IMG/VR virus record: IMGVR_UViG_3300037193_001415
Coordinates: 1-34,717 of that record
Length of the DNA: 34,717 nt
Reading direction: 5' to 3' (one strand)
Source: a virus
Shown here: piece by piece, positions 18,187 to 34,561 of the stretch
How positions within the stretch are numbered: the first letter of the stretch is position 1
Layout of the letters: every line of letters starts with the position of its first letter
Position numbers and translations under genes: made by a program
Notes under the pieces: model-generated
Told to the model about the DNA's origin: nothing
The model's input: the letters and a program-made list of their open reading frames with translations, nothing else
Database searches by the model: none

Positions 18187-20538
18187 TTACCCCTCTATCT
18201 CAGCAGTCAGTTGCAATGCGCGGGGGCTGGCTTTCAGGATGGCATCTACGGCCAGCTCTAGGGCAGTATCCCGCGCACTGGCAATAAGCAGCAAGGCCGC
18301 AAGCACCTCAGCCCCCAGAGACCCCTCAGCAATCGAGGTGCCCAGCGCGGTGCCTGCCAGCGCATGGGAGAGCTGCAGGTAGCTGGCAAAGGCCGCAGCT
18401 GTGCCGGTGCTAGACCCACTCAGCTCATGGGCCACCTGCAGGTAGGTTGCAAACGCATCACTAGAGCCCTGCGCAATCCCGCTGAGGGGGTGGGTCATGG
18501 TCAGCCGCGTGGCAAAGGCATCAGAGGTACCGATAGCCACCCCGGCCAGCGCAGCCCCAGCGCTCTGGGTAGTGAGGTCACCGCTAGCGCTGCTGGTGCC
18601 AGCTGCTACCCCTGCAAGGGGATGGCCCACGTTCAGCTGGCCCGCACTGGCCTCACTAGAGCCCTGTGCCGTGCCCGCGAGGGGGTGCCCTACGTTCAGC
18701 TCGGTGGCACTGGCCTCAGAGGTACCTGCGCTAGAGCCCTGCAGGGGGTGAGACACCTGCAGGCTGCCAGCCACAGCCTGCGAGGTGCCCTGTGCAGACC
18801 CAGCCAGAGGGTGGCTGAGCTGCAATCCTGAGGCTACCGCAAATGAGGTACCCACTGCCGTGCCTGCCAGCTCTGCCCCGGCATCATCTACCGTCAAGTC
18901 TGCGCTGGCGGATGAGGTACCTTGCGCGGTGCCCTGCAGCGGGTGCCCCACGGTGATGCGGCCCGCGCTGGCATCGCTGGTGCCAGTGGCCTCAGCGGTC
19001 AGCGGGTGCCCCACGTTTAGCTCACTCGCACTGGCTGCAGAGGCACCAACGCTAGAGCCCTGCAGCGGGTGGGTCATGGTCAGCCCGGATGCACTGGCCT
19101 CAGCCGTGCCTTGCGCAGACCCTGCGAGGGGGTGCCCTACGTTGATGGCCCCTGCACTGGCCTCAGCTGTACCCACACTAGAGCCCTGCAGCGGGTGGGT
19201 CATGGTGAGCCTGCTGGCGCTGGCCTCTGAGGTGCCTACACTCGTACCTTGCAGGGGATGGGATGTGCTCAGCCTGCTGGCGCTGGCCTCTGAGGTACCA
19301 ACACTAGAGCCCTGCAGGGGGTGATTCATTACCAGCTGTGATGCGCTGGCTGCTGAGGTGCCTACTGCGCTGCCCCCAAGCGGGTGCCCTACCGTAATCC
19401 GGCCAGCGCTGGCCTCGCTGGTGCCAGTGGCTGTGCCCGCGAGGGCTGCCCCGGCTGCCCCCAGTGAGAATTCATCGTATTTGACCGTGCCACCATCGCG
19501 GTAGATGATGCCAATGGCATTGGTGAGCTTTGCGGCCAGCAGGGCATCGACAGTGACAGCATCTTTCCATTCAGTATCAGTACCCCATGTGCCGGTGCCA
19601 CCATCGCTGTCACGGTAGATATCCTGCGTGGTGTCATCAGGCCAGAACATATAGACGGTGTTGCCGTCTGCTGCTCCCATGCCCGGTATCTCAGGGTCAG
19701 TGACCGTGGTGGGGCTAATAGTCTGCAGTGACCATGTGGGGGCATCCGCGCTGGTTGCCCGCCAGACTTTCAGCTCCCCGCCACTGTCAATGATGGGCAC
19801 AATGATTTCAGTGCCCTTGGCAAAGGGGGTGCCAACCACGGTGCCCACGCTCTGAATCGAGCCATCTATTAGCTGCTCAGTGCCCAGTGTGTTGGTGCTA
19901 GTGATGCAGCGATGGTAGAGGGTGCTACTGCCACCCATGTAGAAACAGTGGGTACGGTTGCCAATAGCAAGGGCACCCACTGCGGCAAAGTGTGTTTGCC
20001 CACCGGTACTGCACACCGTGCCGATGTTAGTAATTCCTGCCTCTTTGGCGAGAGCGTGCACGCGGTAGTAATCGGTGCCCATGATGCGCTCAGGGGGACC
20101 GTTATAGAACATGACATATTCGTTAGTGTTCCGGGGGCCAGCGGCAAATAAACCCGGTGCGCCACTGGGGTGATTGCTGCCAATAATGTCAAACGCAATC
20201 TGGCCAAAGCCACCACCCCATGTGTTGGTGGCCATCGAAAAGTCTTTACCTACGATGTGCGCACCGTTATCGGCCAGTGCTACCCGTAGCGTTGACCCAT
20301 CTTTGATGGCGGAAAATACGAGCGCGCTGCCCGCATATGACCCCGCCACCGGGGCATTGGCGGCATCCTGCTCAGCCCATGAATTGCCCCCATCGGTGCT
20401 ACGCCATGCCTCAATTACGAGGCCGGAAAAATTGCCCAGAATGACGTACAAATCACCATTGGTGTGCTGAAACGGGCCAACAAAGCTATTAGCCTGTCGA
20501 GGCAGAATCAGGCCGGTGAATGAATAGGGGAGTGGCAT
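18187..20538 (-). CDS. Fibre protein: beta-propeller-like head plus about 18 tandem 21-residue repeats
   Basis: A 783-residue protein in two parts. Residues 1-355 look like a beta-propeller of sialidase/BNR type, with Asp-box motifs at about 47-54 (STDGGNSW) and 318 (SDGGTGTW); no catalytic Arg triad can be assigned. Residues about 362-735 consist of some 18 repeats with consensus HPLxGxxxGTSxASAxxLxxx, followed by a helical Ala/Leu-rich end. The repeats should form a long beta fibre or solenoid shaft. The gene lies inside the head module, between the methyltransferase and scaffold, so a capsid-attached fibre is as likely as a tail fibre. It overlaps the upstream gene by one base. Confidence 0.8.
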   Translation of the reverse strand: MPLPYSFTGLILPRQANSFVGPFQHTNGDLYVILGNFSGLVIEAWRSTDGGNSWAEQDAANAPVAGSYAGSALVFSAIKDGSTLRVALADNGAHIVGKDFSMATNTWGGGFGQIAFDIIGSNHPSGAPGLFAAGPRNTNEYVMFYNGPPERIMGTDYYRVHALAKEAGITNIGTVCSTGGQTHFAAVGALAIGNRTHCFYMGGSSTLYHRCITSTNTLGTEQLIDGSIQSVGTVVGTPFAKGTEIIVPIIDSGGELKVWRATSADAPTWSLQTISPTTVTDPEIPGMGAADGNTVYMFWPDDTTQDIYRDSDGGTGTWGTDTEWKDAVTVDALLAAKLTNAIGIIYRDGGTVKYDEFSLGAAGAALAGTATGTSEASAGRITVGHPLGGSAVGTSAASASQLVMNHPLQGSSVGTSEASASRLSTSHPLQGTSVGTSEASASRLTMTHPLQGSSVGTAEASAGAINVGHPLAGSAQGTAEASASGLTMTHPLQGSSVGASAASASELNVGHPLTAEATGTSDASAGRITVGHPLQGTAQGTSSASADLTVDDAGAELAGTAVGTSFAVASGLQLSHPLAGSAQGTSQAVAGSLQVSHPLQGSSAGTSEASATELNVGHPLAGTAQGSSEASAGQLNVGHPLAGVAAGTSSASGDLTTQSAGAALAGVAIGTSDAFATRLTMTHPLSGIAQGSSDAFATYLQVAHELSGSSTGTAAAFASYLQLSHALAGTALGTSIAEGSLGAEVLAALLLIASARDTALELAVDAILKASPRALQLTAEIEG
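18336..19455 (-). repeat. About 18 tandem 63-bp repeats encoding a 21-residue unit
   Basis: The encoded unit HPLQGSSVGTSEASASRL plus three residues recurs at a constant 21-residue spacing with variable positions 4, 6-8, 12 and 17-21. Two units are 2 residues longer and lack the His-Pro. The DNA stays similar enough (recurring CCCTGCAGGGGGTG-type blocks) to allow unequal recombination. Confidence 0.88.
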
Positions 20539-21112: not shown

Positions 21113-21361
21113 CTACCTCTTGCGCTCTTGCCACCCTCGATACTCATAGCAAATCTGCGCGATATTGATGCCCCGCACCCTGCGCTTTATCTCCATAAGG
21201 TGCGTCTTAACGGTCTGCGGTGACCGGTGCAGCAGCGCTGCTGTCTGTACGTTGGTGCAGCCATACTCGCAGGTCAAGGCCAGCACCTGCCGTTGCCGTT
21301 TGCTCAATTCCCCAAAGCCCTGCTTACGCGGCTTGTGGTAGTTGAATCGAGCCCGCGCCAT
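21113..21361 (-). CDS. Stand-alone LuxR/GerE-type helix-turn-helix protein
   Basis: An 82-residue protein consisting almost only of a GerE-type DNA-binding domain (about residues 19-65): LSKRQRQVLALTCEYGCTN, then AALLHRSPQTVKTHLMEI, where the TVKTHL recognition helix is diagnostic. Flanks are basic. No sensor or receiver domain exists. It starts one base inside the previous stop (TAATG). As a late gene it may time or shut off transcription late in infection, or alter host expression; both are inference. Confidence 0.85.
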   Translation of the reverse strand: MARARFNYHKPRKQGFGELSKRQRQVLALTCEYGCTNVQTAALLHRSPQTVKTHLMEIKRRVRGINIAQICYEYRGWQERKR

Positions 21362-21783: not shown

Positions 21784-21976
21784 CCGGTTGCTCACTTTCT
21801 GTGAATGGGGCCAGCTCTTGGCCCTGCTCATCTATCACGATGGTATCACCGCCTAGGCCCCACTCGATGGCAGCCACCTCGCGGGCCCTGAATGCCCCGG
21901 TGATAGGGCCAAGATACTCTACATAGGCCTCAAATGTGAAAGCCTTGCCGTCAATGATCTTGACCGCATCGCTCAC
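21773..21976 (-). CDS. Small hypothetical head-region protein
   Basis: A 67-residue acidic protein with a mixed beta/alpha pattern (GKAFTFEAYVEYLGPITGAF, then DTIVIDEQGQELAPF). A GTG start at 21976 is chosen because it forms a 4-base GTGA overlap with the stop of the MuF gene and GAGGGG lies 8 bases upstream. A GTG at 21985 sits on that binding site. No family is recognised. Position suggests a head or connector accessory protein. Confidence 0.7.
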   Translation of the reverse strand: MSDAVKIIDGKAFTFEAYVEYLGPITGAFRAREVAAIEWGLGGDTIVIDEQGQELAPFTESEQPDAG

Positions 21977-23892
21977 TCTATCCACCCCTCATCACGAAAT
22001 ATGTCATCAATGGCCTGTAGCACCGGGGCAAAATCATCATCAGCCCACTGGGTCTGGTGATAGAGCTTGGTGGGGTCTTGTGCCTCGCGCAGCTCTGCCA
22101 GTGCCCTCGGATGCTGTGATTTCGTGACTATGTACTGGGCATAGCTGCGGGCCCACAATTCTTCATCACTGATGGCATAGCGGATATATTGTCGATTGAT
22201 GCGGTGCTGGGTCACCTGCCCGCTGGCGTCAGTAATTCCCCACGTAGGGGCCGTCTGCATGGCCTTAAGCTCAGATACAGCCCGCGTTTGCTGCACTGCA
22301 GTACGCCAGCGCTCTAGCTTGCCCCCAGAAATCTTTGAGCCATAGGTAGTGGTGAAATCCTCCCCCGGCATCCGGCCAAAGTATTGCTGGTCAATGTAGT
22401 GCCCCAGCTCATGGGCCATCGTGTTGTAAGTGTGATGATTCCCGGTCTTGGCTGACACCTCTACCGCGTCTGGTACCAGCTTTCTGCGGTAGTCGGCCTT
22501 GGTGGTCATGCTGCCCTGCGAGACATAGCCCGCATAGCGGGATTTATAGACCCCATAGGATGCTGAGCGTTGATTCATCTGAACAGGCACCGGGCTCAGG
22601 GTGCCATCACCATGCACGCCATCAATCATGCTAATGGTCTCACGCACCTTGTCTGCGATAGCCCCGCTGGCCCCCTTGCGGGGCAGCTTGCTGGCATCGA
22701 GGTGCTGACTGACCGGTATGCCCTTGGGCTTGGTGGGGCCAGCTGGGCCCTGCGCAGCAGTAGGTGGTATGGGTGTTGGCGTTGGCTTGGGTGGCTTTGG
22801 TGGTGGCGGCTGCCCACCCCCTAGCAGCTCTGCCACACTGCGCTGGCTGCGGCCCCCACCCCATTTGGGTGACCATGTGCGCTTGGGCAGGTCGCTGAGG
22901 TCAATACGGCCCTGCCGGTAGGCATGGTGCAGCTTGGGGCCCATAATCCTGCGCTGCTGGTCTTGGGTCAGCTGGCGAAATAACTTATCCCCGGTGGGCT
23001 CTTTCGGTACATCGAGGTCAGCCCCGGCCAGTGCGGGATTGATTTCGCCGGGGCTGCGCAGCAGGCCTTTCATCGAGCACCTGCAGGCTGGGTGCGTTTC
23101 CATCCGCTCATCAAGGCCATGCTCAGTACCGTGCATGGCCCAGCACATGGCGCAAGTAGTCTCTTGCAGGGCACTGACCCAGACCCAGCCCCGCAGATAC
23201 TTGCGATTGCGCTGCATGGTGGCCAGCTGGGTATCTCGATAGACCCGCATCATTTCAGTGCGAAACAGCACAGCGGTCTTGCCCGCGTGAGCCCCGGTGG
23301 CCCTCGCCAGCCTGCGGGCTACCTGTGCTGGATTTTCCCCATTGGCGATGGCCGCTACCAGCTCATTGCGCATCATCGGTACGGCAGCTTGGCCAAAGCG
23401 GGTGGCTAGGCTCTCGATGATAGGGCTGCCATCCCCCAGCCGCGAGGTAATCAGCTCTAGCTCAGCTTGGGGCAGGCTGGCAAATCCCAGCGTGACTGAG
23501 CCACTGCGGGGAATGATTGCAAGGCCCTGCTGAATGCCATCAGCCACCGATGCGCGGGCCAAGACCCCAGCATCATCGAGCTGGCCACTCATGTAGACCC
23601 CTACATCTGAGCCCAGTTTATCGAGGATGGCCGTTACATCGCCCAGCAGGGTAGCCAATCGCTGCTCTGACCAGATAAAGCCACTCAGATACTCAGGGCT
23701 GGCCCCAGCGGCCTTGGCTGCCTGCAATCGAGCATAGGCCTGTTTCCATTTGGGCAGCAGGCTCTGGGCAGCAGCTTCATACATCAGCGCCAGCTGCCTG
23801 CGGGCTGCCACCTCATTGGCCCGCAGCCGCGCTAGGTAGTCATCACTGACCCGCTCTATCTGGCTGGGCTGCGGGGCTACTGGCGCAACCAT
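21973..23892 (-). CDS. MuF-type head morphogenesis protein fused to a zinc metalloprotease-like domain
   Basis: A 639-residue protein after the portal gene. Residues 1-290 match the Mu gpF/SPP1 gp7 family: long helices, the FRTEMMRVYRDTQ segment, and around residues 245-275 the CAMCWAMHGTEH and HPACRC cysteine/histidine cluster. Proteins of this group bind the portal and enter the capsid in few copies. A Pro-rich linker (about 355-385) leads to a C-terminal domain with the zincin motif HELGH at 494-498 and a downstream ELWARSYAQY whose Glu578 is a likely third ligand. MuF proteins often carry variable toxin or enzyme C-termini injected with the DNA. Whether this one cleaves phage or host protein is unknown. 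Confidence 0.88.
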   Translation of the reverse strand: MVAPVAPQPSQIERVSDDYLARLRANEVAARRQLALMYEAAAQSLLPKWKQAYARLQAAKAAGASPEYLSGFIWSEQRLATLLGDVTAILDKLGSDVGVYMSGQLDDAGVLARASVADGIQQGLAIIPRSGSVTLGFASLPQAELELITSRLGDGSPIIESLATRFGQAAVPMMRNELVAAIANGENPAQVARRLARATGAHAGKTAVLFRTEMMRVYRDTQLATMQRNRKYLRGWVWVSALQETTCAMCWAMHGTEHGLDERMETHPACRCSMKGLLRSPGEINPALAGADLDVPKEPTGDKLFRQLTQDQQRRIMGPKLHHAYRQGRIDLSDLPKRTWSPKWGGGRSQRSVAELLGGGQPPPPKPPKPTPTPIPPTAAQGPAGPTKPKGIPVSQHLDASKLPRKGASGAIADKVRETISMIDGVHGDGTLSPVPVQMNQRSASYGVYKSRYAGYVSQGSMTTKADYRRKLVPDAVEVSAKTGNHHTYNTMAHELGHYIDQQYFGRMPGEDFTTTYGSKISGGKLERWRTAVQQTRAVSELKAMQTAPTWGITDASGQVTQHRINRQYIRYAISDEELWARSYAQYIVTKSQHPRALAELREAQDPTKLYHQTQWADDDFAPVLQAIDDIFRDEGWIE

Positions 23893-27455: not shown

Positions 27456-27488
27456 GCAACGGCCTCGATGGCCAAGGAAACACACACC

Positions 27489-28574
27489 ATGACGCGCACA
27501 GAGCACGGTGAGACTGGTATCCGCTGGGGCAATCGCCATCGGGGTGAGGGCACTGGCTATATCCATGAGCTGGGCACCACCTTTGATGACCCCGATATCA
27601 CCGCAGAGGCCGCAGCCCGCGAGGCTGGCCTCGACTACACCATCATCAAGCGAGACCTTGCCACGCGAGACACCAAGGGCCACTACCTCAAGGTGCCCGG
27701 TGCCTTTGCCCTGCTGTCTGATTACGATGGCAGTCCTGAGGTCATTGCCGTGGTCGGCAAGGAATTTGAGCCAGTCCAGAATATGCACCTTGCCGAAATG
27801 CTAGACCGTGCTGGCCTCACTGGCCCCGGTGGCCTCTATAGCCTCGATGTGGCGGGCAAGACCGCAGACGGTCGCACCGTATTCTGGTCACTCAAAGACC
27901 GCGAGGATTTCACCATTAATGGCGACCGCTACCGCAATCACTGGGTCATTCTCGATGGCAAGGATGGTAACCGGGCCCTAGGCATGGCCCTCACCCCCAT
28001 CAGATTCATCTGCAGCAATGCCCTGCAGGCTGCGGTGAGCGGGGCCAGCATCAAGGTGGGCATCAGCCACACCGCCAATGCCCAGAAAGAGCTGGCTTGG
28101 TGGCTGTCGATTGCCCCCAAGCTGCAGGCAGCCGCAGAGCAAAACCGCGAGGTGCTGAGCCGCATGGGCAGCATCGTGGTGGATGAGCCCCAGATACAGC
28201 AGGTGCTAGAGGCCGCGTATCCGGTGCCAGCCCTCAAGGGCAGGGCCCAGCTGTATGCCTCGATGCCGCAGCTGCAGCTCAGCGATGATGACGCCATGAG
28301 CGTTGACCGGGCTTACGCCAGCCATGGCACCATAGCCCTGCGTCAGCTCAAGCACATCACCAACGTCACCCAGCTCTTTCGCAGCTATGACACAGACCCG
28401 GATGAGGGCAACATTGCGGGCACCCTGCTGGGTGTGGTGAACGCGGTGACTGACTATGAAAATCACCGTGAGGCCACCTCAGTACGTGAGAATGCCGCGC
28501 TGAGCAACCTCACCGGCCCGCGCTATCTGGCTCAGGTCAAGGCCATGCGGGCAGCCGTGGCGCTGGCCAAGTAG
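27489..28574 (+). CDS. DUF932 phage/plasmid-like protein
   Basis: A 361-residue protein, first gene of the early operon. It matches the DUF932 (phage/plasmid-like, TIGR03299) pattern: YLKVPGAFALLSDYDGSPEV, VVGKEFEPVQN, then the TPIRFICSNALQAAV block and a C-terminal region ending in LTGPRYLAQVKAMRAAVALAK. The molecular function of the family is not established; it is widespread in phages, plasmids and prophages near replication or recombination genes. ATG 27489 is chosen because AAGGAAA lies 8 bases upstream, as in other early genes here. The ATG at 27468 is in frame but precedes that site. Confidence 0.88.
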   Translation: MTRTEHGETGIRWGNRHRGEGTGYIHELGTTFDDPDITAEAAAREAGLDYTIIKRDLATRDTKGHYLKVPGAFALLSDYDGSPEVIAVVGKEFEPVQNMHLAEMLDRAGLTGPGGLYSLDVAGKTADGRTVFWSLKDREDFTINGDRYRNHWVILDGKDGNRALGMALTPIRFICSNALQAAVSGASIKVGISHTANAQKELAWWLSIAPKLQAAAEQNREVLSRMGSIVVDEPQIQQVLEAAYPVPALKGRAQLYASMPQLQLSDDDAMSVDRAYASHGTIALRQLKHITNVTQLFRSYDTDPDEGNIAGTLLGVVNAVTDYENHREATSVRENAALSNLTGPRYLAQVKAMRAAVALAK

Positions 28575-28586
28575 GCTGGCAATCGA

Positions 28587-28612
28587 GGGGGCCCACAATC
28601 GGGTGGGCCCCC
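28587..28612 (+). other. Intergenic stem-loop after the DUF932 gene
   Basis: A perfect 10-bp stem (GGGGGCCCAC/GTGGGCCCCC) with loop AATCGG. The upstream flank carries GCAATCGAGGGGGCCC (28579-28594), a one-mismatch copy of the sequence at 29427 and, on the other strand, 16023. No U-tract. Confidence 0.75.
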
Positions 28613-28631
28613 ATAGCACAGGGGAAACACC

Positions 28632-28811
28632 ATGACAGAGGCAAAACTGGCTCAAATGGCCCATGAATGGGGGGCACTGTATAAGGCCTCGCTTAACCCA
28701 GAGGATGCTGGCACTGCACAGCGGTGTCTGATGCGGCTGATGGCCATTGAAATACTGGCTGAGGCCCATGGGTGGCAGGACGTGGTTGATTATATTCAAG
28801 AGGTCTACTAG
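28632..28811 (+). CDS. Small early protein, 59 residues
   Basis: ATG 28632 follows AGGGGAAACACC, a strong ribosome binding site of the same type as other early genes, and the frame ends at TAG 28809-28811. The product is a helical acidic protein (KLAQMAHEWGALYKAS, LMRLMAIEILAEAHGW, DVVDYIQEVY) without Cys clusters or membrane helices. No family is recognised. It lies between the DUF932 gene and the zinc-binding protein, whose start follows by 2 bases. Confidence 0.78.
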   Translation: MTEAKLAQMAHEWGALYKASLNPEDAGTAQRCLMRLMAIEILAEAHGWQDVVDYIQEVY

Positions 28812-28813
28812 CC

Positions 28814-29407
28814 ATGAGCATCTGCCGATTAAACAAAGTGGCCAAGGCCCAGAAAGACCAAGGCCGCTGCCAGATTTGCGGTCAGCCTGTCACCAAGGGG
28901 CAGGCCTACGGATGGTGGAAAGGCCGCTATACCCCCCGCTACGTGGCCCACGCGGGCTGCCCGGTGCCAGCATGGCGTAGAGAGACCAATGCCACTAAAT
29001 CTGAGGCCATGCAGGCTGCTGAGCTGGTCATCAAAGCCCAGAATGCCCTCAGCCCGGATGCGGCAGCTCTGTATCTGCGCGATGCCATCAGCATGATCGA
29101 AAGTGTCAGGGATACCCTGCAAGAGCGGGTGGACAGCTGGCAGGGCACCGGCCTTGAGAATAGCTACCAAGCTGAGGCCTGCAGCAACACCATCTATGAG
29201 TATGACCAGTGGCTCAGTGATGCAGAGGATTGGGCCAGTGAGCTTGAGTCACTGGGCCCTGAGCCAGATGAGCCCATTGATGACCCTGAGGCCCATGAGA
29301 ATGGTGACTACGCGGTAGCGGCCCAAGAGCACACAGACTGGCTTGAGGCCTTTGAGGAAGCGCAGGGGGCCATCGAGGATGCCCCAGAACTGGATATGGG
29401 GGCCTAG
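28814..29407 (+). CDS. Early protein with N-terminal zinc-knuckle-like motif
   Basis: A 197-residue protein. Residues 19-49 hold Cys19-x2-Cys22, then His46 and Cys49 (CQICGQPV to HAGC), a spacing typical of treble-clef or zinc-ribbon folds. Residues 60-125 are helical. The last 60 residues are highly acidic (EPDEPIDDPEAHEN and after) and could mimic DNA or bind basic partners. No family is assigned. It is coupled to the 59-residue gene and followed by a hairpin. Confidence 0.75.
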   Translation: MSICRLNKVAKAQKDQGRCQICGQPVTKGQAYGWWKGRYTPRYVAHAGCPVPAWRRETNATKSEAMQAAELVIKAQNALSPDAAALYLRDAISMIESVRDTLQERVDSWQGTGLENSYQAEACSNTIYEYDQWLSDAEDWASELESLGPEPDEPIDDPEAHENGDYAVAAQEHTDWLEAFEEAQGAIEDAPELDMGA

Positions 29408-29418
29408 AGCCCTACGCA

Positions 29419-29444
29419 GGGGGCTTGCAATCGAGCGGGCCCCC
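29419..29444 (+). other. Intergenic stem-loop after the zinc-binding early gene
   Basis: GGGGGC and GCCCCC pair around a 14-base loop. The loop and 3' arm contain TGCAATCGAGCGGGCCCC (29426-29443), identical over 18 bases to the minus-strand element at 16024-16007 after the capsid gene. No U-tract. Confidence 0.72.
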
Positions 29445-29467
29445 AGAGCCACAAGAAAGGCACCACC

Positions 29468-30385
29468 ATGCCCCGGATTTCATACGTAGAAAAGCGTTTC
29501 AGCACCACCACCATGGCTACCATCGAGCACGCGGATGGCATCTGCAGGCAGTACGCTGCGCAGGGCCTCACGCTGACCCTCAGGCAGCTCTACTATCGCT
29601 TTGTGGCCGGTGGCCTCATTCCCAATCGAGACACTGAGTACAAACGGCTGGGCACCATCCTCAATGATGCGCGGCTGGCTGGCCTCATTGACTGGCACCA
29701 CATGGAAGATAGAACGCGCAACCTCAGGGCCCTGAGCCATTGGGACACCCCCAGTGAAATGATCGACAGCGCAGCGGCCAGCTATCGCATCGACAAGTGG
29801 GCCCGCCAGCCTGAGTACCTTGAGGTCTGGATTGAGAAAGATGCGCTGGTGGGGGTGATTCGGGGCATAGCCACCACCCATGATGTGCCCTATTTCAGCT
29901 GCCGGGGGTACACCTCGCAGAGCGAAATCTGGGCAGCCGCGCAGCGCCACATCAGGCACATGAAACGGGGCCAGCGGGTGACCATTCTGCACCTAGGTGA
30001 CCATGACCCCAGCGGCATAGATATGACCCGCGATATCACAGACAGGCTGGCCCTGTTCTGCGAGTCGCATGGGTACGATGCCCCCACGGTGCAGCGGCTG
30101 GCCCTCAATTGGGACCAGATACAGCAGTATGCCCCGCCACCTAACCCGGCCAAGCTGACTGACTCGCGGGCCTATGGCTACATCAGCCGCTATGGTAATG
30201 ACAGCTGGGAACTAGACGCACTAGAGCCTACCGTCATTACAGCCCTGATTAATGACGCCATCACCGCGCACCGGGATGAGTACCTGTGGGACATTGCGGC
30301 AGACCGCGAGGCCACAGAGCGGGCCCAGCTGCAGCGCATCGCTGAGCAGTGGGATGCCATCACAGATTATCTGGGAGAGGTCTAG
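29468..30385 (+). CDS. Spo11/topoisomerase VI A-like protein (stand-alone, Topo mini-A type)
   Basis: A 305-residue protein with the two domains of type IIB topoisomerase A subunits. An N-terminal winged-helix region carries TLRQLYYRFV, with Tyr42-Tyr43 in the place of the DNA-cleaving tyrosine motif of Spo11 and Topo VI A. A Toprim domain follows with Glu123 (VWIEKDALV) and Asp178-x-Asp180 (GDHDPSG), the metal-binding set. The WHHMEDRTR block between them is conserved in phage relatives. A GHKL ATPase (B subunit) gene is not seen in the window. Such A-only proteins have been described in mobile elements as Topo mini-A. A DNA-breaking or strand-transfer role in replication or recombination is plausible but unproven. 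AAGAAAGG precedes the ATG. Confidence 0.85.
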   Translation: MPRISYVEKRFSTTTMATIEHADGICRQYAAQGLTLTLRQLYYRFVAGGLIPNRDTEYKRLGTILNDARLAGLIDWHHMEDRTRNLRALSHWDTPSEMIDSAAASYRIDKWARQPEYLEVWIEKDALVGVIRGIATTHDVPYFSCRGYTSQSEIWAAAQRHIRHMKRGQRVTILHLGDHDPSGIDMTRDITDRLALFCESHGYDAPTVQRLALNWDQIQQYAPPPNPAKLTDSRAYGYISRYGNDSWELDALEPTVITALINDAITAHRDEYLWDIAADREATERAQLQRIAEQWDAITDYLGEV

Positions 30386-30387
30386 CC

Positions 30388-30618
30388 ATGCAGCCAATCG
30401 ACCTGAGCACCTACCGCACCACCAAGGCCCTGCAGAGCCGCGTAAAGCCCCAAGACGTAGTAGTGGTCTGGGCCGTGGTCTTTCAATCCGCTGGCACCCT
30501 GCAGGCTCACATCAACCTGAGCTATGAGGCTGCAGAGCAGATGCTGGCCTACTCGCACAGCATCGGCATGCCTGCATGGCTCTGTGAGCTAGAGCTGGCA
30601 GGTGATGGCCGTGCCTAG
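30388..30618 (+). CDS. Small early protein, unknown function
   Basis: A 76-residue protein starting 2 bases after the Spo11-like gene, with GGGAGAGG as ribosome binding site. It has a strand-rich centre (QDVVVVWAVVFQSAGTLQAH) and a helical second half (YEAAEQMLAYSHSIGMPAWL), a compact alpha/beta layout. No family is recognised. Tight coupling suggests it works with, or at least is co-expressed with, the Spo11-like protein. Confidence 0.72.
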   Translation: MQPIDLSTYRTTKALQSRVKPQDVVVVWAVVFQSAGTLQAHINLSYEAAEQMLAYSHSIGMPAWLCELELAGDGRA

Positions 30619-30895
30619 AATCTACGCAGCGGTGACTGCAGCGGGCTGCCTGCTGGTGGGGGCCATTGTCAACAGCCTAGGCCTCACCATCATCGGGCTC
30701 TGCATTGCCTGTGCAGTGGTGGCCAGCGTGGCTGCTGAGGATGCGCGGGCCCGCAAGGCAGCCAAGCCTCGCAAGCCCCGCAGGTGGTACGCAGAGCCAT
30801 GCTCACTCTGCGAGGGGCTGGGCAAAGACCAGCACACCCTGCAGCCGTGCACCAAATGCCACGGCAGGGGCTGGATTGAGGGGCCACCCTTTTGA
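30611..30895 (+). CDS. Membrane protein with DnaJ-type CxxCxGxG zinc motifs
   Basis: A 94-residue protein. Residues 4-41 form two hydrophobic segments (a membrane hairpin). A basic stretch follows at 47-60, then a pair of CxxCxGxG motifs (CSLCEGLG at 64-71, CTKCHGRG at 80-87), the zinc-binding repeat of DnaJ. The layout implies a membrane-anchored zinc domain on the cytoplasmic side. A GTG start at 30611 overlaps the preceding stop as GTGCCTAG with AGGTG 6 bases upstream; ATG 30605 is the alternative. It is the last gene before the second promoter. Confidence 0.75.
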   Translation: MPRIYAAVTAAGCLLVGAIVNSLGLTIIGLCIACAVVASVAAEDARARKAAKPRKPRRWYAEPCSLCEGLGKDQHTLQPCTKCHGRGWIEGPPF

Positions 30896-30906
30896 GCCTT
30901 GAGGTG

Positions 30907-30918
30907 TGCTATCCTGTG
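30907..30918 (+). promoter_or_regulatory. Early promoter-like element, copy 2 (extended -10)
   Basis: The 12 bases TGCTATCCTGTG are identical to those at 27413-27424 and again preceded by CCTTG. Transcription would start near 30922 and give a leader of about 110 bases before the ATG at 31034. Confidence 0.6.
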
Positions 30919-30962
30919 TACCTGTTCGCAATAGTGAGAGGGGGCAGCATTCACCACACCAC

Positions 30963-30995
30963 GCGGGCCTAGCGCAATGCCCTCACTGGGCCCGC
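30963..30995 (+). other. Leader stem-loop before the MerR-like gene
   Basis: GCGGGCC (30963-30969) pairs with GGCCCGC (30989-30995) across a 19-base loop inside the 138-base gap between 30895 and 31034. The rest of that gap holds the promoter-like element and the ribosome binding site AAAGGGGAAC. Confidence 0.5.
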
Positions 30996-31033
30996 ATATC
31001 GAGAGGGCAACGGATTAAAGGGGAACACACACC

Positions 31034-31411
31034 ATGCCAGATGTAGACCTTAATCGCCTTTCGCAGATAGCCTCATTAACCGCTGAAACGGTGGCGCAAT
31101 ACACCGGATTTAGCACGCAGGTTATCCGCGCAGCCACCAAAGAGGGCCTGCTGCCCGGTACCATGACTGAGGGGGGTGGCGAGTATCGCTACAAAGTGAG
31201 CGATCTTGAGACCATCCGGCAGATTATGACCAAGCGCCACGCTGAGCCCCGCAAGCAGGGGCAGGTCAAGGCCCTGCAGACCAAGCGCAGCCTCGATAAT
31301 CTGACTGCGCAAATCAACAGCCTGATTGAGCGTGTTGACCGCATCGAGCAGCAGCTGGCTGAATCAGAGACCACCCCGGCGGTGGTCAATTCTTGGGGGT
31401 CTATGACGTAG
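31034..31411 (+). CDS. MerR/excisionase-like DNA-binding protein with C-terminal coiled coil
   Basis: A 125-residue protein. Residues 15-65 form a winged helix-turn-helix (LTAETVAQYTGFSTQVIRAA, then EYRYKVSDLETI), the pattern of MerR-type and excisionase-like proteins. From residue 75 to 110 a charged helix (LTAQINSLIERVDRIEQQLA) should form a coiled coil for dimerisation. No effector-binding domain is present. As first gene of the second early transcript it is a probable regulator of phage promoters or an accessory factor for DNA replication or excision. AAAGGGGAAC precedes the ATG. Confidence 0.78.
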   Translation: MPDVDLNRLSQIASLTAETVAQYTGFSTQVIRAATKEGLLPGTMTEGGGEYRYKVSDLETIRQIMTKRHAEPRKQGQVKALQTKRSLDNLTAQINSLIERVDRIEQQLAESETTPAVVNSWGSMT

Positions 31412-31424
31412 CTGTGAGGGCACA

Positions 31425-31455
31425 TGCGCTGGGGGCAATCTCACCCCCCAGCGCA
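31425..31455 (+). other. Intergenic stem-loop after the MerR-like gene
   Basis: A perfect 11-bp stem (TGCGCTGGGGG/CCCCCAGCGCA) with a 9-base loop, 14 bases after the stop codon. No U-tract. An ATG at 31424 in frame with the next gene lies at its foot and is rejected as a start for that reason. Confidence 0.75.
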
Positions 31456-31501
31456 GCCCACCCCGGTGAGATTGGTATTGATGCAGAAAGAGAATTGGCA
31501 G

Positions 31502-32260
31502 ATGCCAGCAGCGCGCAAATCAACCCTAGACAGCATGACCGCAAACACCAAGGCGGGGGATGCCCCGGCAGATGACCCAGACGACGTGATCCCCCAAGGG
31601 GGCCCGCAGGCCGTCTACAGCACAGAGGCCAATTTTGACCCTAAAGAGCTGAGCACCGCGAGGCTCAGTATCGCGCAGGCCCTGCACCCAGATGTGCGGG
31701 CAGGCAAGGTACGTGAGGGCCAGCTGGTGGTCACCGGGATGCCCCCCACAGAGTCAGTCATCTTGGTGGTGGCTGGCCACACCCCGCAGCGCCGATTTAT
31801 CGAGGCTGGCCAGCAACAGGCCCGCTGCTACTCGGTAGATGCGGTGGTGGGCATTGGTGACCCCGGTATTGCCTGCGCTGAGTGCCCATTCAGCAAGTGG
31901 ACTGACTCAGGCAAGAAAGACAAGACCGGCAAAACCATCAATGTGCGGCCACCCTGTGATGAGGTGGACAGCTTTCTGTGCTACAGCGTCACCCATGGGA
32001 TGCCACTGCTGTGGAATCTCAAGGGCACGGCCAAGCAGTCGGCCCGCTTTCTCAAGACCCTCGCCACTGGGCTGGGCTTTGGGAATTTCGCCATTGAGGT
32101 CACCGCAGAGACCCGCAGCAATGGGGGCAATGTCTGGCAGGTGCCCAAGGTGGTCTTGGCCAATGAGGGCCTGAGCCCTGAGGAATGCCAAGCCTACGCC
32201 ATGATTGCCCGCAGTACCGTCAAGACGGCTGGGGCCATCACCGCGCAGGCTGAGGCCTAA
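31502..32260 (+). CDS. Four-cysteine early protein, possibly nucleic-acid binding
   Basis: A 252-residue protein whose core (about 120-215) carries Cys125-x2-Cys128-x23-Cys152-x7-Cys160, a likely zinc site. Neighbouring segments include FSKWTDSGKKDKTGKT, LLWNLKGTAKQSARFLKTL and TAETRSNGGNVWQVPKVV. Similar proteins occur in early regions of other phages and have the look of single-strand DNA-binding or replication accessory proteins, but the function is not established. The first 40 residues are low complexity. ATG 31502 has GAAAGAGAA about 10 bases upstream; ATG 31481 and ATG 31535 are alternatives. Confidence 0.72.
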   Translation: MPAARKSTLDSMTANTKAGDAPADDPDDVIPQGGPQAVYSTEANFDPKELSTARLSIAQALHPDVRAGKVREGQLVVTGMPPTESVILVVAGHTPQRRFIEAGQQQARCYSVDAVVGIGDPGIACAECPFSKWTDSGKKDKTGKTINVRPPCDEVDSFLCYSVTHGMPLLWNLKGTAKQSARFLKTLATGLGFGNFAIEVTAETRSNGGNVWQVPKVVLANEGLSPEECQAYAMIARSTVKTAGAITAQAEA

Positions 32261-32267
32261 CCATATC

Positions 32268-32295
32268 GGGCAGGGCTCTGCACAGGGCCCTGCCC
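32268..32295 (+). other. Intergenic stem-loop after the four-cysteine gene
   Basis: A perfect 9-bp stem (GGGCAGGGC/GCCCTGCCC) with loop TCTGCACAGG. The stem-loop boundary GGGCTCTGC is shared with the minus-strand hairpin at 15515-15538. No U-tract. Confidence 0.72.
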
Positions 32296-32308
32296 ACTGA
32301 GGTACACC

Positions 32309-32557
32309 ATGAGCACCAAAATCACCCGATTACTCTTGACCCTACCAATGGCTTTAGTGCTGGCCCTCACGCTGACCGGCAGAGGTGCCCCGGCACAGGC
32401 AGATACGCAGGGCTGGCAGCTGTTTCAGCATGAGCTGACCAGTGAGGCATCAGCGGATGAGCTGGTCACCTTTCTGGGCACCCTTGATGCCAGCTGTGCG
32501 GTGGCCTTTCAGATCGTGCCACCGGCCCGCTTTGTGGTGATGTATGCCTGCCCCTGA
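32309..32557 (+). CDS. Small secreted protein with Sec signal peptide
   Basis: An 82-residue protein. The N-terminus is a classical signal peptide: Lys4 and Arg7, a hydrophobic core (LLLTLPMALVLALTL), then APAQA before Asp32 as a signal peptidase I site. The mature part of about 51 residues has two cysteines (LDASCAVAF and the penultimate residue), which could form a disulfide outside the membrane. No family is recognised. It lies beside two DNA-binding regulators in the early region, so superinfection exclusion, a lysogenic-conversion factor or a signal are possible roles; none can be shown from sequence. Confidence 0.75.
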   Translation: MSTKITRLLLTLPMALVLALTLTGRGAPAQADTQGWQLFQHELTSEASADELVTFLGTLDASCAVAFQIVPPARFVVMYACP

Positions 32558-32762
32558 GCCAGCCCAGCTGCCACGCATTGACCAGTACCTGAGCCGCAGC
32601 CAAGCGGCTGAGCTGCTGGGGGTACACCCCACTACGGTCTATCGCTGGGGCAAGGCTGGCCTCATCACAGAGCACCGGCTGCCCAGCGGCAAAATCCGCT
32701 ACAGCCCTGATGAGGTGGCTACCGTGCTGGCCGAAATCGCAGAGGGGGATGCAGAGCCATGA
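32544..32762 (+). CDS. BldC/MerR-like helix-turn-helix protein
   Basis: A 72-residue protein made up of one winged helix-turn-helix: QYLSRSQAAELLGVHPTTVY, RWGKAGLITEHRLPSGKIRY, SPDEVATVL. This is the BldC/excisionase-type domain common in actinobacteria and their phages. Family members act as transcription regulators or recombination directionality factors; no integrase gene is seen in the window. The start overlaps the secreted-protein gene by 14 bases, and the next gene begins in its stop (ATGA). Confidence 0.85.
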   Translation: MPAPEPAQLPRIDQYLSRSQAAELLGVHPTTVYRWGKAGLITEHRLPSGKIRYSPDEVATVLAEIAEGDAEP

Positions 32763-33151
32763 GCTTTGGGCCCACCCTGCGGGTGATGCGTGAGCGGACC
32801 CGCATAAGCCAGAGCGGACTGGCCAAGCTGGCAGCCTATGACCACAGCTATGTCAGCAGGCTAGAGGCCGGGGAACGGCTGCCCACCCGCGATGCCGTCA
32901 CCCGGCTCTGCAAGGCCATGGCGCTAGACCCAGACAGCTGTGGCACGCTGCTGGCCGCTGCTGGCTTTCTGCCTGATGACATAGGGGTGCTGTATCACCA
33001 CCCAGAGTTGGCCCAGCTTGATAGGGCACTGGCAGCCTGCACAGACCAGCAGGTACTCACCGCTGCATTGGGCACGGTGTCTTTAGTTATCAGGGCTCTG
33101 CAGGGCTCTGGGGAGAATAGCCACCACCATGGCACAGCAAAAGACTGGTAG
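32759..33151 (+). CDS. XRE/Cro-type transcription regulator
   Basis: A 130-residue protein with a typical lambda-repressor-like DNA-binding domain in residues 4-65 (LRVMRERTRISQSGLAKLAA, then HSYVSRLEAGERLPTRDAV). A helical C-terminal region follows that is too short for a LexA-like cleavage domain and lacks its motifs. It is a candidate repressor or Cro-like protein acting on the inverted sites at 27254-27274 and 27359-27379. It is transcribed in the same direction as the early genes, unlike a classical divergent repressor. Confidence 0.88.
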   Translation: MSFGPTLRVMRERTRISQSGLAKLAAYDHSYVSRLEAGERLPTRDAVTRLCKAMALDPDSCGTLLAAAGFLPDDIGVLYHHPELAQLDRALAACTDQQVLTAALGTVSLVIRALQGSGENSHHHGTAKDW

Positions 33152-33779
33152 CGCTGAACAGGATGCAGAGCAAGGTACCTACTTTGCCGCTGAGGGCAAC
33201 GTGGCCACCGTGCCAATTAAAGCCCTCGCGGGCACGCCACAGGATGCTGAGCCCCGCGAGTGCGAGGCCCCAGCGGATTTCAGCTCAGAAGAAATGCGGC
33301 TCGTGGTCAACGTCATCAAGGCCTACTGCCAGCGCAAGGGGCATATCACCATTGGGGTGGTCATGCAGCTGGGTGAGGCCTTGGGGCTAGAGCTGGCGGG
33401 CAATCTGGCGCTAGTCGATGGGGGTGCAGAGAATATCCTGCTGATGCCCCATCTGAATGAGCGGGCAGTGCGGCTGTTTCAGTACCTCGCGGATGATGAG
33501 ATTACCCACTGGCACCCGGTGAGTGAGGATAGCTATGACCGCTATGACCCCACCGGGCTGCGGGCCAAGCAACCTGCGGCTGATATCGTGCTGTGGAACC
33601 ATGACCAGCCCCAGCTCGATGCAGCGCAGTGGTACTGGCTGCCACTGGTGCTGTGTGCAGCCCGCGAGGGTGACCTGCGGGATAGGGTCATGTCGCTAGA
33701 CCTCGATGGCCTCAAAGACATTATTTCGGACTTGATTAGGCTGGGTGATGCGCCGCAGCCTGCCGACTTTCAGGCCTAA
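33129..33779 (+). CDS. Hypothetical early protein
   Basis: A 216-residue, acidic protein. The first 45 residues look disordered. Residues 48-110 are helical (MRLVVNVIKAYCQRKGHITI, MQLGEALGLELAGNLALV), and the remainder is mixed with many Trp and Tyr (HWHPVSEDSYDRYDPTG, AAQWYWLPLVL). No known domain is recognised. The CDS overlaps the XRE gene by 23 bases and has GGGGAGAA before the ATG. Confidence 0.72.
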   Translation: MAQQKTGSAEQDAEQGTYFAAEGNVATVPIKALAGTPQDAEPRECEAPADFSSEEMRLVVNVIKAYCQRKGHITIGVVMQLGEALGLELAGNLALVDGGAENILLMPHLNERAVRLFQYLADDEITHWHPVSEDSYDRYDPTGLRAKQPAADIVLWNHDQPQLDAAQWYWLPLVLCAAREGDLRDRVMSLDLDGLKDIISDLIRLGDAPQPADFQA

Positions 33780-33802
33780 CGGCCACAGGGGAATTGACCA
33801 CC

Positions 33803-34561
33803 ATGAATATCACCAAGCGATTCAAGAGCCTGCGCAAAGAGATAGACGACCTGAGCAATGAGGTGGCACTTGCCCTTGGGGCCGCTGCCGATGCGCAGTA
33901 CCAGCTCACGCGGGATGGGGTGCGCACCGCGCTGAACAGGGCCAAGCTGCCGACCATCCGCACACTGGTGCGCGAAATCCATGAGCAGGTGGGCTACATC
34001 TACAGCACCCTGCAGCCCGGAAAGGGGCTAGCCAAAGGCCAGCTAGAGCGCATTGAGGCCCAGCTAGATGGCCGTGATGAGTATATCCGGGATAGCCTGC
34101 GGGCCCGCGTAGAGGGGGTGCAGCATCAATTGACTGAACTGACCAAGGCAGCCAAGGCCGGTGACCAGCGGCTGCAGCGGTTACTGGGTGAGGGCTATGA
34201 GCTGCAAGGCCCTACTGACCATCAGCTAGACACGCTGCAGACCCAGCTTGATACCCTAGAGCTGACCCTACGGCCAGTAATGAATACCTGCGTATGGCTT
34301 GAGAGCCAGCTGCGCGAAAATGGCAGCATCAAGGCCCTGTGGGATGCGCGTACCACAGACCTGCACACCAAGCTCGATAGGCTGCTGGCTGCCCACGATA
34401 GGGGCCCGCAGCAGGTAAACGCTGGCCCTTGGGTGCTTGTCAGCAGGCTAAACACCCTGCAAGAGCGGGTGGCCAGCATCATTGAGCACCAAGACAAGCA
34501 GACTCAGGCCATAGCCACACTGGCCAGAGAGCTAGAGCTGCACCGGGGCAAGACTGAGTAG
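33803..34561 (+). CDS. Coiled-coil protein of unknown function
   Basis: A 252-residue, almost wholly helical protein with heptad-like spacing of Leu/Ile over most of its length (SLRKEIDDLSNEVALAL, LQTQLDTLELTL, LNTLQERVASIIEHQDKQ). It is rich in Gln, Arg and Glu and has no membrane segment. It could be a structural or bridging protein or an anti-host factor; no family is recognised. ATG 33803 is chosen because AGGGGAA lies upstream; a TTG at 33794 lies inside the same leader. Confidence 0.75.
   Translation: MNITKRFKSLRKEIDDLSNEVALALGAAADAQYQLTRDGVRTALNRAKLPTIRTLVREIHEQVGYIYSTLQPGKGLAKGQLERIEAQLDGRDEYIRDSLRARVEGVQHQLTELTKAAKAGDQRLQRLLGEGYELQGPTDHQLDTLQTQLDTLELTLRPVMNTCVWLESQLRENGSIKALWDARTTDLHTKLDRLLAAHDRGPQQVNAGPWVLVSRLNTLQERVASIIEHQDKQTQAIATLARELELHRGKTE

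Follow-up and report, generated by a model that had tools for sequence, protein, structure and literature searches.

A Topo mini-A protein, an A-only relative of topoisomerase VI and Spo11, encoded in the early region of a probable siphophage

The DNA analysed here (hereafter the window) is an IMG/VR virus record that is linear, fragmentary and 34,717 bp long, and one gene in its early region encodes a Topo mini-A, i.e. a virus-encoded, A-only protein of the topoisomerase VI (Topo VI) A subunit/Spo11 type. The Topo mini-A family is that of Takahashi et al. 2020, according to the passages on it in PMC7614492 and PMC8185306, and it has already been described in phages. An earlier sequence-only reading, which had proposed an A-only type IIB topoisomerase in the early region of a siphophage, was therefore right in its main claim, and the claim is not new: the protein is a new sequence within a described family. 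The A-only identity is upheld by homology and by the active site, while the standing of the family in phages had been understated. The open reading frame (ORF) starts with ATG, ends with TAG, and agrees in codon usage with the remainder of the phage. Its coordinates and the residues named earlier (Tyr42, Tyr43, Glu123, Asp178 and Asp180) were all correct on re-reading, and the main features are as follows.

29468..30385, + strand: Topo mini-A gene (type IIB topoisomerase A-subunit-like), 305 aa; by PHROG 6247 (E 2.4e-106), homologues and fold
29576..29602, + strand: TLRQLYYRF, winged-helix catalytic motif, residues 37-45; by alignment to the YY of archaeal Top6A
29582-29584 and 29594-29596, + strand: codons of Arg39 and of the catalytic Tyr43, within TLRQLYYRF, the latter beside Tyr42
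29834..29836, + strand: Glu123, first Toprim metal ligand, in EVWIEKDA; aligned to the Toprim Glu of Top6A
29996..30016, + strand: GDHDPSG, Toprim DxD motif, from residue 177; aligned to DGDPYG of Top6A
29999-30001 and 30005-30007, + strand: codons of Asp178 and Asp180, within GDHDPSG
30206..30223, + strand: WELDAL (Trp247-Leu252), conserved C-terminal motif; by family alignment

In a profile search, PHROG 6247, named 'DNA topoisomerase', was matched over residues 4-300, which makes the window protein a full-length member. The same profile is matched by LC711082, a gene from an archaeal plasmid that was deposited under the name 'Topo Mini-A' and is homologous to the window protein (E 1e-22), so that the profile comparison with mini-A families proposed earlier came out positive. 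In homology over the full length, size, A-only state and viral carriage the window protein is like the Topo mini-A proteins, and no defining difference was found. Pseudomonas phage NP1, which the review PMC7614492 gives as a Mini-A example, encodes a protein with 42% identity over 94% (tblastn, E 2e-66). Using tblastn, relatives were detected in at least 76 phage records (74 of them at 80% cover or more), many already annotated as 'DNA topoisomerase', with hosts including Pseudomonas, Salmonella, Brevundimonas, Roseobacter, Microbacterium and Flavobacterium. Mini-A relatives are also encoded in at least 237 IMG/VR stretches and in at least 183 stretches of bacterial and archaeal genomes (GTDB), among them Streptomyces, Nonomuraea, Actinomadura, Paenibacillus, Azospirillum, rhizobia, Clostridia, Chloroflexi, Planctomycetes and one Nanoarchaeota MAG; the copies on bacterial chromosomes are probably prophages. 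The nearest relative among those compared has no more than 62% identity to the window protein. In a FastTree tree of 186 sequences, the window protein is placed amid copies from phages and actinobacterial genomes, well away from the divergent ones on plasmids, and the plasmid sequences do not form one clade under midpoint rooting. Domain databases gave no accepted Pfam or NCBIfam match for the window protein; the Top6A/Spo11 Toprim family PF21180 scored below its cut-off (12.1 bits vs 24.1), TP6A_N reached an E of 0.014 at best among members, and PDB sequence searches, single and with a profile, returned no match.

Both halves of the Spo11/Topo VI A active site, recognised by the sequence-only reading in the one protein, are conserved throughout the family and are paired with the Top6A catalytic set by profile alignment. 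In an alignment of 186 phage, bacterial-genome and plasmid sequences, Glu123, Asp178 and Asp180 are kept without exception (186/186), and Tyr43 is present in 185, the single gap being Roseobacter phage RDJL Phi 1, whose frame is interrupted. Homologues lacking the tyrosine, which had been named as evidence against DNA cleavage, were found nowhere among the 185 intact copies. Since Tyr42 is replaced by F or W in 16 of the 186, Tyr43 is taken to be the catalytic tyrosine. Arg39, four residues before it, is present in 184 of the 186; in M. mazei Top6, Arg102 lies four residues before the catalytic Tyr106 and belongs to the 'electrostatic clasp' (PMC13040014). Towards the C-terminus, WELDAL is conserved across the family and Glu248 is kept in 183/186. 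Judged by its motif, Glu248 is possibly the fourth ligand or clasp Glu of Top6A, the E-x-x-A-L/F of mini-A resembling VEQQAF of Top6A by pattern only, with no support from profile alignment. An equation of Glu248 with the clasp Glu342 of Top6A by alignment was not adopted, as the profile alignment does not decide it and the match is one of pattern.

As for RDJL Phi 1, its mini-A frame (L164, 6956-7905) is interrupted in the deposited record and the match falls into two pieces, of which the C-terminal one alone bears the annotation 'DNA topoisomerase'; the match in RDJL Phi 2 is uninterrupted.

An AlphaFold2 model built from 69 aligned sequences (pLDDT 92.7, pTM 0.83) has Topo VI A as its top PDB fold match (1d3y_B, E 1.5e-4, probability 1.00); another of the best matches is M. 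mazei Topo VI, and a BFVD fold search gave one significant match only, a short one. The structural check suggested earlier thus succeeded as to the best fold match, but the fit of the whole chains to each other is poor (TM 0.39, rmsd 17.6). This suggests that the domains are set at another angle in the model; or the monomer model may lie outside the active pose. In Topo VI and Spo11 each active site is composite, one subunit supplying the tyrosine and its partner the Toprim metals (PMC11922746). Because the active site spans two subunits, a monomer model should not be expected to bring Tyr43 close to the Toprim site, and a Tyr43 lying away from the Toprim metal site, which had been offered as a ground for rejecting a cleaving role, is an ill-posed measure for such a model. 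Profiles were also compared by hhalign, for which 30 archaeal Top6A proteins were collected and in which each E-value refers to a single comparison. The full active site was aligned with E 0.003 and a probability of only 10%, the profiles being shallow; this alignment set TLRQLYY against T(K)RE-YY, Glu123 against the Glu of the Top6A Toprim, and GDHDPSG against DGDPYG. When the mini-A profile was broadened, E 3.5e-5 and a probability of 72% were reached over the Toprim part only, with E 0.38 for a reversed control. Archaeal Top6A is like the window protein in having a winged helix followed by a Toprim domain, in the aligned catalytic Tyr, Glu and DxD, and in being the best fold match, whereas the window protein is shorter (305 vs ~365 aa), has DPSG for DPYG and another C-terminus, and has no Top6B partner.

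The earlier observation that no B subunit is seen extends from the window, itself a fragment, to the family's other carriers. The Topo VI B transducer (PF09239) was found in 0 of 50 mini-A phage genomes or contigs, including 16 complete annotated phages, while four archaeal controls were positive; it was also absent from nine mini-A plasmids. The GHKL ATPase domain HATPase_c_3 (PF13589) occurs in one of the 50 carriers, a 243-kb contig, and Pfam detects no GHKL/ATPase part in the window protein itself. The phage genome in the window may be incomplete, so it may hold genes beyond the fragment.

The mini-A gene lies, as had been read, in the early region, a rightward block (27468-34558) opposed by a leftward structural block. 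The latter contains terminase, portal, major head and tape-measure families, and no sheath family was found among the proteins scanned, which makes the label 'siphophage' a reasonable one. The genes next to mini-A are the following.

27468..28574, + strand: DUF932/TIGR03299 protein; Pfam E 6e-26
28814..29407, + strand: 197-aa protein with an N-terminal CxxC...H...C; no Pfam zinc family at cut-off
30388..30618, + strand: 76-aa ORF, with its ATG at 30388, 2 bases after the mini-A stop; by ORF reading

The DUF932 gene and the coupled 76-residue ORF are thus as described before, but the 'zinc knuckle' between them is a putative one, with no Pfam zinc family at the cut-off. The proposal that these genes form a functional set with mini-A is contradicted by a co-occurrence survey of 185 loci and 50 records. 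By tblastn, relatives of the 76-aa gene were found in none of the 185 mini-A loci, those of the 197-aa protein in five and those of DUF932 in three; DUF932 was found by HMM in 7 of the 50 whole records, in 6 of them above the curated cut-off. Neighbours were further tallied by blastp clusters and PHROG families at positions 1-3 on each side in ~75 non-redundant loci, with genes called by a codon-usage caller, longest-ORF calling being unreliable in GC-rich loci. A conserved partner gene was rejected on this tally, no PHROG family being found in more than three flanking proteins per scan (125 and 140 genes). The immediate neighbours of mini-A are on the same strand in 94-99% of cases, many with 4-base overlaps, and their identity varies by phage: helicase, exonuclease VIII/RecE, Cas4-type exonuclease, Erf, RecT, Sak4, SSB, DNA polymerase, ligase, ParB-like proteins and thymidylate synthase all occur. 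For instance, in PaMx25 mini-A overlaps a Sak4-like annealing gene by one base, with a Cas4 exonuclease and a helicase downstream, and in Fizzles a Cas4 exonuclease and a recombinase precede it. All that the genomic context conveys is 'early DNA metabolism', a setting shared by most early genes of phages.

Several other proteins of the window were recorded in passing. On the minus strand, 18190-20538 encodes a 783-aa structural-block protein with many tandem ~30-residue repeats (LxGSAxGTSxASAxxLxxxHP), possibly a fibre or stalk, and 21976-23892 a head-morphogenesis protein that has a HELGH metallopeptidase-like segment in its C-terminal part (TYNTMAHELGHYID); in the latter protein, residues 476-636 are matched by a PHROG whose name is minor head protein and DNA pilot. 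Also on the minus strand, at 21116-21361, a putative LuxR/GerE-type helix-turn-helix was read in an 82-aa structural-operon protein (RQRQVLAL...TNVQTAALLHRSPQTVKTHL). On the plus strand, the 97-aa protein at 30602-30895 carries at its C-terminus a CxxCxGxG zinc motif like that of DnaJ/anti-TRAP, which scores below threshold in Pfam and NCBIfam.

A less expected observation lies outside the window. Divergent mini-A relatives (~25-32% identity) are present on ~45 Streptomyces plasmid records, with Tyr, Glu, Asp and Asp intact in the copies read, and the five plasmids inspected for topology (L216, L217, L220, L222 and L223) are all linear. These copies stand at a median of 16 kb from the nearest end, and at 570 bp to ~30 kb in most. 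On 10 of the 20 plasmids longer than 200 kb the copy lies within 32 kb of an end, vs 3.4 expected, and the skew towards plasmid ends has a KS p of 2e-5, uncorrected for relatedness.

The literature searched contained no biochemistry of any phage mini-A and no function for any mini-A. Computation establishes the family, the fold, the conserved catalytic residues, the early-region location and the absence of a B transducer; starting from these, we infer, with somewhat better than even confidence, that mini-A cleaves DNA in the manner of Spo11, as a homodimer and independently of ATP, and that it serves the replication or recombination of phage DNA early in the cycle. Two copies would dimerise on bent or crossed duplex DNA and make a reversible double-strand break, with the protein held covalently on the 5' ends and no ATPase B subunit taking part. 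The phage would make the protein early and direct it at its own DNA as this replicates, most likely for starting or resolving recombination-linked replication together with the exonuclease or annealing proteins of that phage. Mouse SPO11 has been shown to cut DNA as a dimer with no partner present, each of its two active sites being formed jointly by the subunits (PMC11922746); as mini-A has the same residues and no B subunit, it would most simply act in the same way. Spo11, an A-type protein as well, is a eukaryotic meiotic protein with a B-like partner in vivo. Residue conservation is what points to a homodimer that makes tyrosine-dependent double-strand breaks and becomes linked to the 5' ends, and the tie to recombination and replication would follow from location and chemistry, early phage regions being rich in such genes anyway.

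Possible, though on the whole unlikely, is a true topoisomerase that would relax or decatenate phage DNA without ATP, or with a borrowed host ATPase, and reseal every break. The complete topoisomerase catalytic set is indeed conserved, SPO11 is able to relax plasmids by cleavage and swivelling (PMC11922746), and one Topo VIII, that of M. marina, relaxes DNA without ATP according to the passage on it in PMC7614492. Topo VIII, too, belongs to the type IIB topoisomerase relatives that mobile elements carry, but it usually comprises a single chain that includes an ATPase part, whereas the window protein has no GHKL domain. The coupled strand passage of Topo VI, however, needs the ATPase subunit, and the survey of 50 carriers gave no transducer and hardly any GHKL domain. 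Gyrase and topo IV, moreover, are already supplied by bacterial hosts.

We regard as improbable a takeover nuclease, which would break the host chromosome and thereby free nucleotides or shut off the host. Such a role would suit an early-region gene with a DNA-cleaving active site that in some phages adjoins nucleotide-metabolism genes, e.g. thymidylate synthase. However, relatives reside in many bacterial chromosomes (probably as prophages) and on plasmids that are stably maintained, among them one of 8.8 kb from an archaeon and the Streptomyces linear plasmids, where a chromosome breaker would harm its carrier unless tightly repressed. This carriage argues against a host-killing nuclease and favours action on the element's own DNA. 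Even less probable is that the tyrosine does no cutting, the protein instead binding DNA bends or acting as a Toprim nuclease that uses water, like JetD/GajA, and perhaps interfering with such defence systems. JetD and GajA (of Wadjet and Gabija) share the Toprim cleavage core, defence-system Toprim nucleases are of the same broad fold (PMC13040014), and there are weak DUF2399 and PF21180 scores. Mini-A, on the other hand, keeps the catalytic tyrosine in all intact members, JetABC/GajB-like families are absent from its most frequent neighbour families, and JetD_C gave no Pfam match for the window protein at E 1. A relation to JetD by hhalign was likewise dropped, the comparison with just three JetD-type sequences being not significant (E 0.1).

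A broader proposition, which we hold to be doubtful, is that mini-A proteins are self-sufficient enzymes that break and reseal mobile DNA in general, starting recombination-dependent replication in phages much as meiosis is started by Spo11 and, in a divergent clade, acting near the telomeres of Streptomyces linear plasmids. As the family is widespread across phages of many bacterial phyla, keeps all its catalytic residues and lacks the ATPase partner, mini-A offers a compact natural test of what the cutting core of Topo VI and Spo11 does on its own, and also of whether phages drive replication or recombination by programmed breaks. Since several carriers infect tractable hosts (Pseudomonas, Rhodobacter and Microbacterium), a knockout is feasible.
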